Positions 13,403 to 30,978 of a stretch of DNA of 64,000 nt are shown here, one piece after another (positions within the stretch are counted from its first letter, which is position 1; the number at the start of each line of letters is the position of its first letter). A model generated the notes under the pieces. That model was not told where the DNA came from, ran no database searches, and saw only the letters and a list, made by a program, of their open reading frames with translations. Origin of the DNA: Christiangramia sp. OXR-203 (GTDB lineage: Bacteria; Bacteroidota; Bacteroidia; Flavobacteriales; Flavobacteriaceae); NCBI RefSeq assembly GCF_034372165.1, contig NZ_CP139698.1, positions 1 to 64,000 of the forward strand, read 5' to 3'. The translations under genes and the position numbers were made by a program.

Positions 13403-15301
13403 ATGAGTGACGCTATAAAACACGAATGTGGAATTGCACAGATAAGGCTTCTTAAACCATTAGAATACTATAAAAAGAAGTATGGCACTGCTTTTTATGG
13501 TGTGAATAAGATGTACCTTCTTATGGAGAAACAGCACAACCGAGGTCAGGATGGTGCAGGTTTCGCCAGTATCAAATTAAATACTGCACCTGGTGAGCGT
13601 TACATAAGTCGCGTAAGATCTAATGCCGCACAGCCAATTCAGGATATTTTTGAACAGATCAATCAAAGGATCAATGATGAGATCCTGGCAAATCCAGAGT
13701 ACGCAGAAGATACTGAACTTCAGAAGAAATACATCCCTTATCTGGGTGAGGTTTTTCTAGGTCATGTTCGCTACGGAACCTTCGGAAAGAACAGCATAGA
13801 AAGCGTACACCCATTCCTGAGACAGAACAACTGGATGCACCGTAATCTTATAGTTGCCGGTAATTTCAACATGACCAATGTGAACCAATTGTTCGATAAT
13901 CTTGTAGAACTTGGTCAGCATCCAAAAGAACGGGCTGATACGGTCACCGTAATGGAGAAGATCGGTCACTTTCTGGATTCAGAAGTAAGAAAATTATATA
14001 AGAAACTTAAGAAAGAAGGCTTTTCCAAGAAGCAGGCATCTCCACATATCGCAGAGCAGCTTGATGTTGCGAAGATTTTGAGAAAATCCTCAAAGAACTG
14101 GGATGGAGGTTATGCCATGGCTGGAATGATAGGTCACGGTGATTCCTTCGTACTTCGCGATCCTGCAGGAATTCGGCCCGCATATTATTATAAAGATGAT
14201 GAAGTGGTCGTGGTAGCTTCAGAAAGACCAGTAATTCAAACAGTATTCAATGTAGATTTTGATGATGTTCACGAATTACCTCCAGGGAACGCGATCATCA
14301 CTAAAAAAAGCGGAGAGGTAAATATTACCGAAATTCTGAAACCTCTGGAGCGCAAAGCCTGTTCTTTTGAAAGAATCTATTTTTCCCGTGGTAGTGATGC
14401 TGAAATTTATGAAGAGCGTAAAATGCTGGGCAGACTACTCATGCCAGATGTATTGAAAAGTATTGACCATGACACCTTAAAAACTGTCTTCTCATTTATT
14501 CCTAATACTGCGGAAACTTCTTTCTACGGAATGGTGGAAGCCGCTCAGGATGAATTGAATAAACAGAAGAACGAAGCTATTCTGGAGGAAAAGGAAACTT
14601 TAACCGATGCCAGACTACAGGAAATTCTATCGCACAGACTTAGAACTGAAAAGATCGCGATCAAAGACGTAAAGCTACGAACCTTTATTACTGAAGATAG
14701 CAGCAGAGATGACCTGGTTGCTCATGTATATGATGTGACATACGGCGTGGTAAAACCCGAGGACAACCTCGTGATCATTGATGACAGTATTGTTCGGGGA
14801 ACTACTCTGAAGAAAAGTATTATCAAGATGATGGACCGGCTAAAACCAAAAAAGATCGTGGTAGTTTCTTCGGCTCCGCAAATAAGGTACCCGGATTGTT
14901 ATGGAATTGATATGGCCAGGCTGGAAGATCTTGTTGCTTTTAGAGCTGCTTTGGAGTTACTTAAGGAATCTAACCAATATGAGATCGTAGAAAAGGTCTA
15001 TAAGAAATGTAAGCAACAGGTAGATTTAGATGATACGGAAGTGCAGAACTTCGTCAAGGAAATGTACGAACCATTTACCAATGAGCAGATCTCTGATAAG
15101 ATCTCAGAATTGTTGTGTGATACGGATGTAAATGCTGACGTAAAGATCATTTACCAGACGGTAGAAAACTTACATAAAGCATGTCCAAAGAACCTGGGTG
15201 ACTGGTACTTTACCGGTGACTATCCCACTGCCGGCGGGAACCGGGTAGTAAACCGGGCATTTATAAATTTCTATGAAGGAAATACAGACAGAGCATACTA
15301 A
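13403..15301 (+). CDS. purF: Amidophosphoribosyltransferase, long Bacteroidetes form
   Basis: A 632-residue enzyme for the first committed step of purine synthesis (PRPP plus glutamine). The glutaminase nucleophile is the Cys in KHECGIAQ at residue 9, so a short leader must be removed. GHVRYGTFG and DPAGIRPAYYY belong to the glutaminase domain; the PRPP loop LVIIDDSIVRGTT is near residue 458. It is about 130 residues longer than the usual enzyme, with extra Lys/Glu-rich stretches near 190-230 and 350-400 and a longer C-terminus. Such long forms are known in Bacteroidetes. No purine riboswitch was seen upstream. Confidence 0.9.
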   Translation: MSDAIKHECGIAQIRLLKPLEYYKKKYGTAFYGVNKMYLLMEKQHNRGQDGAGFASIKLNTAPGERYISRVRSNAAQPIQDIFEQINQRINDEILANPEYAEDTELQKKYIPYLGEVFLGHVRYGTFGKNSIESVHPFLRQNNWMHRNLIVAGNFNMTNVNQLFDNLVELGQHPKERADTVTVMEKIGHFLDSEVRKLYKKLKKEGFSKKQASPHIAEQLDVAKILRKSSKNWDGGYAMAGMIGHGDSFVLRDPAGIRPAYYYKDDEVVVVASERPVIQTVFNVDFDDVHELPPGNAIITKKSGEVNITEILKPLERKACSFERIYFSRGSDAEIYEERKMLGRLLMPDVLKSIDHDTLKTVFSFIPNTAETSFYGMVEAAQDELNKQKNEAILEEKETLTDARLQEILSHRLRTEKIAIKDVKLRTFITEDSSRDDLVAHVYDVTYGVVKPEDNLVIIDDSIVRGTTLKKSIIKMMDRLKPKKIVVVSSAPQIRYPDCYGIDMARLEDLVAFRAALELLKESNQYEIVEKVYKKCKQQVDLDDTEVQNFVKEMYEPFTNEQISDKISELLCDTDVNADVKIIYQTVENLHKACPKNLGDWYFTGDYPTAGGNRVVNRAFINFYEGNTDRAY

Positions 15302-15373
15302 ATCGCTTTTCAACCAGTAAATATGCATTTTGTCTAATAATATTTGTGGCTAGATTTTATCTATCTACATTAG

Positions 15374-15451
15374 TACCATGCCATAACATAAGTAGGTTAA
15401 GTTCATGGTAGATTTGGGGCAAAAAAAGGTGGATTCATTCCGCCTTTTTTT
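15374..15451 (+). ncRNA. Putative small RNA, copy 1 of 3
   Basis: About 78 nt. A 5' hairpin is closed by TACCATG (15374-15380) and CATGGTA (15404-15410), with an inner TAA/TTA stem around the loop GTAGG. Then a conserved single-stranded stretch AGATTTGGGGC and an A-run lead to the terminator: stem GGTGGA (15428-15433)/TCCGCC (15439-15444), one G-T pair, followed by seven T. Forty-four nucleotides (15390-15433) are identical in all three copies. Its promoter region is more diverged than in copies 2 and 3. Strand is set by the T-run. Confidence 0.65.
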
Positions 15452-15516
15452 ATATCCGGTCGTTAAATTTCTTGAGGTGGCATCCACCTATAATATTCTA
15501 ATAATAAGCCACTTAA

Positions 15517-15858
15517 CTAGTTTTCAGGTATTTCATCTAAAAGTTTGATTTGCAACGAACTTTCAAACTATATTTATTAGACCATAGCACAAGTAGGTTA
15601 AGTTCATGGTAGATTTGGGGCAAAAAAAGGTGGAATGAATCCACCTTTTTTTATGAACATAACTGATAATCAGGTTGTTTAACCCTTCCGCCTACTACTT
15701 AAACAGCTCATTATTTTCAGCTACTCATCTAGTTTTCAGGTATTTCGTCTAAAAGTTTGATTTGCAACGAACATTCGAACTATATTTATTAGACCATAGC
15801 ATAAGTAGGTTAAGTTCATGGTAGATTTGGGGCAAAAAAAGGTGGATCTTGATCCGCC
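15517..15858. repeat. Tandem direct duplication, 212-nt period
   Basis: 15517-15645 and 15729-15858 are near-identical, from CTAGTTTTCAGG to the terminator stem, with a few substitutions. The spacer (about 15655-15728) is not obviously related to other parts. Copy 1 shares only the RNA part and a degenerate upstream flank. Confidence 0.85.
15581..15652 (+). ncRNA. Putative small RNA, copy 2 of 3
   Basis: About 72 nt. The 5' stem is ACCAT (15581-15585)/ATGGT (15606-15610), the 44-nt identical core is 15591-15634, and the terminator is GGTGGA (15629-15634)/TCCACC (15640-15645) followed by seven T. A promoter-like pair TTTG (15544-15547), 21 nt, TATATTTA (15569-15576) predicts a start near 15583, at the 5' stem. 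The changes in the terminator stem keep the pairing. Confidence 0.68.
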
Positions 15859-15865
15859 TTTTTTT
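15793..15865 (+). ncRNA. Putative small RNA, copy 3 of 3
   Basis: About 73 nt. The 5' stem is ACCAT (15793-15797)/ATGGT (15818-15822), with TAA/TTA inside around GTAGG; the core is 15803-15846; the terminator is GGTGGATC (15841-15848)/GATCCGCC (15851-15858) followed by seven T. The promoter-like pair TTTG (15756-15759), 21 nt, TATATTTA (15781-15788) is conserved with copy 2. The flank is about 95% identical to copy 2, so these two arose by recent duplication. Confidence 0.68.
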
Positions 15866-15881
15866 ATGAATATAACTGAAC

Positions 15882-15908
15882 AAAAAAAGACCGCCATTTG
15901 GCGGTCTT
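15882..15908 (-). terminator. Rho-independent terminator of sodB
   Basis: 10-bp stem AAGACCGCCA (15887-15896)/TGGCGGTCTT (15899-15908). On the minus strand the stem is followed by a T-run (A-run at 15882-15888 on the plus strand). Confidence 0.8.
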
Positions 15909-15932: not shown

Positions 15933-16541
15933 TTATTTTGCTTTAGCGTATCTGCTGGAAACTTCTTTCCAATCGATCACATTAAAGAATGCATCGATAT
16001 ATTCAGGACGCTTATTCTGGTAATTCAGATAATAAGCATGTTCCCAAACGTCTAATCCAAGAATTGGAGTTCCTCCACAACCAATTTCCGGCATGATTGG
16101 ATTATCCTGGTTTGCAGTAGAACAAACTTCTACTGTTCCACCACTATGTACACATAGCCATGCCCATCCAGATCCAAATTGTCCAGCAGCTGCATTAGAG
16201 AATTTCTCTTTAAAAGCATCGAAAGAACCAAAAGCGCTATCGATAGCTGAAGCTAGCTCGCCTTCAGGTTTTCCTCCACCATCAGGAGACATTACTTCCC
16301 AGAATAAGCTATGGTTATAAAAACCACCACCATTGTTTCTTACAGCTTTATTAGACATGTCAAGGTTTTGAAGTATATTTTCTATATTCTTTCCTTCCAT
16401 ATCTGTACCTTCGATTGCATTGTTCAGCTTCTTGGTATAACCTGCATGATGCTTATCGTGGTGAATCTCCATCGTTTTTGCATCTATATGTGGCTCCAAT
16501 GCATCAAAAGCATATTTAAGTTTTGGTAATTCAAATGACAT
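15933..16541 (-). CDS. sodB: Superoxide dismutase, Fe/Mn family
   Basis: A 202-residue cytosolic enzyme that dismutates superoxide. Metal ligands are visible: His in [10 protein letters not shown], His in YNHSLFW, and Asp/His in [10 protein letters not shown]. Whether it uses Fe, Mn or both cannot be decided from these motifs alone; the GSGWAWL region is compatible with either. Single gene with its own -7 box and terminator. Confidence 0.95.
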
Positions 16542-30893: not shown

Positions 30894-30968
30894 GCGCAAC
30901 CCCTCGGGTCGGGCTATACGCTACAAGTCCCGTGAAAAACGGGAGCTTTTCGCTGCTATCCCTTGCGC
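30894..30968. repeat. Intergenic structured repeat-like element
   Basis: About 75 nt ended by GCGCAA (30894-30899) and TTGCGC (30963-30968), inverted. Inside is a hairpin TCCCGT-GAAAA-ACGGGA with AAG/CTT extension, and GGG...CCC flanks. It is GC-rich in an AT-rich setting, between the convergent queD and the secreted-protein gene. Similar elements occur in many flavobacterial genomes as far as I recall; no search was possible. May act as a terminator or be a nomadic repeat. Confidence 0.5.
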
Positions 30969-30978
30969 AAAGCCTGAA

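Follow-up and report, generated by a model that had tools for sequence, protein, structure and literature searches.

What are the three elements of about 73 nt that lie, all on the forward strand, between a purF-like gene and sodA in Christiangramia sp. OXR-203, and how might they act? We analyzed them within a window of 64,000 nucleotides (contig NZ_CP139698.1, positions 1 to 64,000). Copy 1, the one proximal to the purF-like gene, occupies 15380-15451 (its 5′ end possibly lies a few nucleotides further upstream, at about 15376), copy 2 occupies 15581-15652 and copy 3 occupies 15793-15865; as training sequences of our model R1, they score 92.8, 89.5 and 99.0 bits against it, respectively. The predicted fold of each copy consists of a 5′ hairpin, a single-stranded stretch and an intrinsic terminator, with folding z-scores of -4.5, -2.7 and -3.1 for copies 1, 2 and 3. 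A sequence-only reading of this DNA had proposed three homologous small-RNA-like elements with an identical 44-nt core, two of them in a recent duplication, and each of these points was borne out. The core, AAGTAGGTTAAGTTCATGGTAGATTTGGGGC followed by AAAAAAAGGTGGA, is identical in all three copies, and a search for its 31-nt portion AAGTAGGTTAAGTTCATGGTAGATTTGGGGC with up to 3 mismatches gives exactly three sites in the window and none in 100 shuffles. Copies 2 and 3 are contained in a 128-nt duplication of 95% identity, and homologues with a covarying terminator are found throughout the family. That these elements represent a real family of sRNA genes is, in our judgment, nearly certain. In the genome of this strain (3,395,452 bases, one contig), matches that cover most of the element are confined to the three copies, and the other matches at E ≤ 10 span 34 nt or less. 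A weak model match at position 1001535 (31.1 bits) was discarded, as it looked like a plain terminator past the end of a gene.

Across 111 distinct copies (from the best 150 of 169 model matches), a region of about 29 nt, GTAGGTTAAGTTYATGGTA(A)GATTTGGGGC, stays nearly invariant, with exceptions such as single changes in five loci (L210, L212, L214, L216 and L218). Divergent copies, 33 of which were listed by eye, allow somewhat more variation in the 5′ arm of the hairpin than in this region. These conservation counts include loci picked, among the matches listed, by an exact 40-nt pattern, so variability among them is understated; the genomes of the genus, family, order and phylum distribution searches were not picked in this way. 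In the window, the nearly invariant region (GTAGGTTAAGTTCATGGTAGATTTGGGGC) corresponds to 15392-15420, 15593-15621 and 15805-15833 of copies 1, 2 and 3, and the terminator, which covaries in relatives, to 15421-15451, 15622-15652 and 15834-15865. Alignment A2, which was fitted to the model and structure and holds the best 150 of the 169 model matches, contains two-sided changes in 7 of 12 terminator pairs with 98.0% of cells paired, where the most divergent copies (L206, L207, L210, L218, L219 and similar) are partly absent from the pair counts; a MAFFT alignment (A1) gives 5 of 12 pairs and 96.6%. The 11 pairs of the 5′ hairpin include none with two-sided changes in A2 (98.9% of cells paired): five never vary, two vary on one side and four depart by unpaired cells only. 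The hairpin hardly varies and thus has no covariation support, so selection on structure is shown for the terminator only. Such selection had been claimed from pairing-preserving changes among the three copies. Covariation among relatives, with two-sided changes, supports it, but the differences within the window itself are one-sided (U-A to U-G), together with additional pairs. Many relatives have a single A inserted between hairpin and tail (GGTAAGATTT), and the A-run following GGGGC is 5 to 8 long. In the divergent loci L206, L207 and L211, paralogues of one array differ in their tails (GGGGC, GGGGA or GGGAC), which suggests that targets may have diverged inside arrays.

Distribution and genomic setting

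All 24 genomes of the genus that we searched contain the element, in 2-5 copies each and 80 in total (forward matches at E 1e-15 or better, counted by hand; one is truncated at 54 nt), with a usual spacing of about 200 nt. A sequence search of Flavobacteriaceae, which the sequence-only reading had suggested as a check, found homologues at E ≤ 0.001 in 164 of 199 genomes, drawn as one per genus; two of the 164 have a weak match only (best E 4.0e-4 and 1.4e-4), possibly to the terminator alone. A covariance model built from 75 sequences was run on overlapping draws from the order (148 genomes) and the phylum (198 genomes). Array copies inside the family score at least 68.7 bits, compared to at most 32.3 bits for the remaining matches within the family and at most 36.7 bits for those outside it in the two draws. 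At least four family genomes of the order draw (G142, G154, G197 and G290) are without a strong match. Based on the sharp family boundary of these scores, the RNA appears to be confined to Flavobacteriaceae, and lost or missed in some members. Searches of phage (50,697) and plasmid (72,556) records with blastn gave no match at E 0.01, and the exact core was not found in viral contigs.

The usual upstream neighbor is the purF-like gene (13403-15301, forward strand), which encodes a divergent amidophosphoribosyltransferase. Its product matches TIGR01134 with 127.6 bits (cut-off 350), and its PDB matches are amidophosphoribosyltransferases; at 632 residues, it is longer than those matched (459-578 residues). 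This protein may be a paralogue with another role. The usual convergent neighbor is sodA (15933-16541, reverse strand), encoding an Fe/Mn superoxide dismutase for which both Pfam domains match and the NCBIfam SOD models give matches short of their cut-offs. A strong inverted repeat (AAGACCGCC / GGCGGTCTT) at 15888-15908 is followed by a T-run on the minus strand and is likely the sodA terminator, facing the array. Among 175 loci, many of which end early and some of which overlap, 134 have both neighbors, 20 the purF-like gene only, 14 sodA only and 7 neither. A few copies (L069, L083 and L155) are located elsewhere.

Promoter-like regions and a putative direct-repeat operator

Each copy is preceded by a promoter-like region of its own. 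Upstream of copy 1, two half-sites read from the sequence (15309-15316 and 15329-15336, forward strand) form a direct repeat with a spacing of 20 bp, followed by a promoter-like stretch at 15343-15373, in which TTTG (15343-15346) is separated by 19 nt from TACATTAG (15366-15373). The operator of copy 2 spans 15512-15539, with half-sites at 15512-15519 (CTTAACTA, one letter off) and 15532-15539 (TTCATCTA), and its TATATTTA box is located at 15569-15576, 13 bp before CCA. The operator of copy 3 spans 15724-15751, with half-sites at 15724-15731 (CTCATCTA, one letter off) and 15744-15751 (TTCGTCTA), and is followed by a TATATTTA box at 15781-15788. The arrangement recurs among 339 distinct upstream regions. 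All 339 have a TAnnTT box 8 to 15 bp upstream of CCA (a raw count, without shuffled control), located at -13 in 282. At least one half-site of the form TTNRWC(C/T/G)R is present in 331 (about 63 in shuffled sequences and 158 on the reverse strand), the last one at -50 or -51 in 262, and a pair 20-22 bp apart in 190 (about 0.2 and 12); the motif was read by eye from sequences also used for this counting, which makes the 20-bp spacing and the fixed position the less circular features. The set outside the genus includes 42 pairs with a spacing of 40 or 41 bp, which point to a third site in some. The operator consensus is roughly GYATTTCATCTAATA, repeated every 20 bp.

The TTTG-N21-TATATTTA promoter described earlier for two copies is present to the letter in copies 2 and 3, but its TTTG box at -33 is not generally conserved. 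Within the genus, TTTG precedes the box in 6 of 34 promoters of the class of copies 2 and 3 (2.0 in shuffled sequences), in 19 of 20 of the class TAnATTAG/TTTAG that includes copy 1, all at N19 (shuffled 5.0), and in 2 of 16 of the remaining class (shuffled 0.1). The classes outside the genus give 14/69, 17/130, 8/53 and 2/17, compared to 8.3, 11.4, 6.3 and 2.4 in shuffled sequences. Strong conservation of TTTG is thus restricted to the genus class TAnATTAG/TTTAG, and the widely conserved promoter feature is the direct-repeat operator rather than TTTG. The box together with half-sites at a nearly fixed distance upstream points to a dedicated activator; activator-dependent transcription is the simplest interpretation, and control of the sRNA genes by an activator is probable.

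A strict two-half-site pattern matched 35 times in 20 of the 24 genus genomes, where a reversed control pattern also matched: 28 matches fall in sRNA arrays, four before katG, one before grpE and one inside a gene of the OXR-203 genome, and one was left uninspected. The three sRNA promoters of OXR-203 deviate from the strict pattern and are not among the 28. An initial pattern applied to this genome gave 7 matches versus 26 for the control, none informative. The only non-sRNA gene with a strict match in more than one genome is katG (4 of 24 genus genomes), identified by a protein model in L362 and by sequence likeness in the other three. In these katG-like promoters (L348, L355, L357 and L362, at about 1500), two half-sites of the sRNA-operator form, with the 20-bp spacing, lie within an OxyR-like palindrome. 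Since the site also fits what we take to be an OxyR-type palindrome, a regulator shared by katG and the sRNAs is a lead, not a result. OxyR itself was rejected as the sRNA regulator: the left half of the ATAG-N7-CTAT palindrome that forms the katG site is absent from the sRNA half-sites. A LytTR-type regulator, which came to mind from a presumed resemblance of the 20-21 bp direct repeats, was considered and set aside.

Relation to known RNAs

No Rfam family reaches its threshold at the three elements or in five loci of relatives. Identity with Flavo-1 had been raised as a possibility to be settled by an Rfam search; Flavo-1 gives no match at its gathering threshold (42 bits) at the elements, and is absent there even among 32 Rfam matches at E up to 5. 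Flavo-1 (RF01705), which occurs in Flavobacteriaceae according to the accessible part of a published study (PMC9723704), is found elsewhere in the window, at 30903-30973 on the minus strand (45.1 bits, threshold 42); it is a different RNA at a different place. The best-scoring Bacteroidota family of Rfam is FopS (RF04319), at 20.0 bits (E 0.19, threshold 56), with an alignment running through UUCAUGGU...AGAUUU of the FopS seed region. The elements share TTCATGGTA--AGATTT with the FopS R1 seed; 26 or 88 of 5000 shuffles, depending on the core variant, reach the same score, in a single comparison not corrected for the 4227 families.

FopS comprises 14 paralogous sRNAs of Bacteroides thetaiotaomicron and is a relative of GibS; in the portions of the FopS and GibS papers available to us, the seeds of both are reported to pair around start codons (PMC7366714, PMC11697453). 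Like FopS and GibS, our elements are short, multicopy Bacteroidota sRNAs (2-5 copies per genome in the 24 genus genomes) with a terminator at the end, and, like that of FopS, their putative seed can cover a start codon. The differences are as follows. FopS, as far as that text describes it, has a single-stranded 5′ part and canonical sigma-ABfr promoters, whereas all three copies here have a predicted 5′ hairpin and lie downstream of a direct-repeat operator. The elements also have a GGGGC tail and stand in tandem beside sodA; the word "tandem" does not appear in the FopS text at hand. We do not claim FopS membership, the similarity being weak; by analogy, however, the RNA probably works like FopS.

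A further comparison is with Flavobacterium psychrophilum, through a survey that we take to be the work of Guerin et al. The accessible text of this survey reports 85 new RNAs and describes Rfp18, which is conserved across species and whose deletion lowers two protease mRNAs (PMC9723704). Our elements resemble Rfp18 as a flavobacterial sRNA conserved across species, but the pairing region of Rfp18 is placed in a third stem-loop in that text, while two stem-loops are predicted for the elements. One of Rfp1-89 may be this RNA. In other phyla, Qrr and the cia-dependent csRNAs are encoded by several near-identical sRNA genes under one activator, and OxyS is a single-copy, activator-driven sRNA. 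The likeness to these lies in the proposed regulation by one activator. We found no description of this RNA in the literature within reach (supplements and subscription journals being outside it), and its core sequence only in two unrelated papers.

Possible pairing with translation starts and rival explanations

The core contains UUYAUGGU, and its complement, GCCCCAAATCTACCATRAACTTAACCTAC, includes ATG if R is G; of the core positions that vary, the commonest (Y) faces the G of AUG, where both C and U can pair. Against 354 translation starts of the OXR-203 genome (taken from the window and a further 20 stretches of 20 kb each), the core has a mean duplex energy of -12.75, compared to -11.76 for dinucleotide-shuffled cores (Z -4.0), and 64 starts fall below -16, compared to 34.5. 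The excess is gone when the start codon is masked (Z -0.6), and is not seen in the upstream part alone (Z -0.3), in the two coding controls (0.5 and -1.7) or on the antisense strand (-0.6). A sequence complementary to start codons is therefore part of the core, consistent with start-codon masking but possibly trivial. Smaller sets, scored in a wider window, show no core excess: neither 28 starts whose genes match the SusC model, mostly below cut-off (p 0.45 on the mean), nor the 53 genes of the window alone (p 0.32).

Searches for individual targets gave the following. The OXR-203 genome shows no enrichment of the exact complement GCCCCAAAT, with 12 sites, three of which are the elements, compared to 11 for the control; the other nine, including one where what we take to be a nifU-like gene ends ahead of a ferredoxin-NADP-reductase-like gene, offered no consistent picture as targets. 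At one mismatch, CAAATCTACCATRAA has 44 non-self sites in the 24 genomes versus 21 for the reversed control (hand count). We inspected 20 of these sites in relatives and the two in OXR-203, which are not at sense-strand starts. Sites recurring at gene starts among those inspected in relatives belong to a lipoprotein gene (Lipocalin_4 just below cut-off) and prfB, and both were rejected as conserved targets, with complementarity kept in only 7 and 4 of the 24 genus genomes, respectively. SusC/TonB-dependent receptors showed no excess pairing. Separately, a small lipoprotein gene (L324-L347) is preceded by a conserved hairpin (ATCCAATGTG...CACATTGGATTTTT) immediately before a short leader in most of the 24 genus genomes, as judged by eye, which is possibly a terminator or attenuator.

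What we observe directly are the sequence elements, a terminator that covaries, an operator-like motif that recurs, and conservation throughout the family; transcription, activation and base-pairing are inferred. In the model that we put forward, the locus comprises tandem paralogous genes for one trans-acting, activator-driven sRNA that masks start codons; taken as a whole, we would place it just short of evenly balanced. Each copy would be switched on separately by a dedicated activator bound to the direct repeats, with the nearer repeat beginning about 50 bp upstream of the RNA; this activator would bring RNA polymerase to a box of the TAnnTTTG type, in most cases without a conserved element at -33. 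The dose would be set by copy number, and the intrinsic terminator would end each RNA. The stretch GUAGGUUAAGUUYAUGGUA(A)GAUUUGGGGC, partly held in the weak 5′ hairpin, would open as an extended seed and pair with mRNAs around the start codon (UUYAU with AUGRA or AURAA, and GAUUUGGGG with the leader), thereby blocking the start of translation, as GibS and FopS do in Bacteroides. Action in trans by base-pairing at translation starts, considered by itself, could go either way in our estimate. It is disfavored by the lack of a convincing target among the candidates examined and by the length of the nearly invariant region, 29 nt being long for a seed; the AUG-based excess may also be trivial.

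The same near invariance, which throughout the family includes the loop and a hairpin arm, would suit an RNA that binds a protein as a decoy or allosteric effector, similar in kind to 6S or CsrB/RsmZ. The hairpin and tail would then form the protein site and the copy number would set the titration capacity, consistent with the tandem multicopy arrays and with an exact complement that is not enriched in the genome. However, the complementarity of the core to translation starts exceeds that of shuffled cores (not in the 28- and 53-gene sets), the unpaired tail GATTTGGGG and the variable spacer of 1-2 A look seed-like, and the tail changes in some paralogues better suit a change of targets. We consider protein binding a serious alternative, though less likely than not.

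The remaining explanations appear weaker still. The usual site between the purF-like gene and sodA, seen in most of the loci counted above even though many are cut short and some overlap, could reflect a cis-acting element of either gene, such as a processed 3′ UTR or an attenuator; but a promoter-like region and a terminator come with each copy, sodA converges on the array and is served by a different terminator-like repeat, and some copies reside elsewhere, which leaves a cis role improbable. A short peptide might be read from the ATG inside the core, where ATGGTAGATTTGGGGCAA... opens a frame. This frame is changed by the variable A-run and by the inserted A of many relatives, its codon positions are all about equally invariant and it continues through the terminator; because of the frame-breaking indels, we reject the peptide. 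Multiple copies, and the occurrence of a FopS sequence in a phage noted in the accessible text (PMC11697453), might instead suggest a repetitive mobile element or phage remnant without host function, but the location is usually the same throughout the family, the core is nearly invariant, and the phage, plasmid and viral searches returned neither a blastn match nor an exact core. Such an origin is scarcely credible.

The sRNA-gene family stands out by its unusual conservation and its preferred genomic home, as multicopy sRNA genes that occur family-wide and have no Rfam model. The locus is defined for deletion, the operator could serve in fishing for the activator, and the covariance model can be used in genome annotation. 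A fuller picture, in which the RNA is a core riboregulator of the whole of Flavobacteriaceae, with a dose-tuned array, one dedicated activator and a role in oxidative stress beside sodA, OxyS-like without shared ancestry, seems doubtful to us as a whole. To our knowledge, little is known of post-transcriptional control in this family. With about 29 nearly invariant nucleotides, and a multicopy locus in the majority of the genera searched, this RNA is likely to be among the main riboregulators of Flavobacteriaceae.
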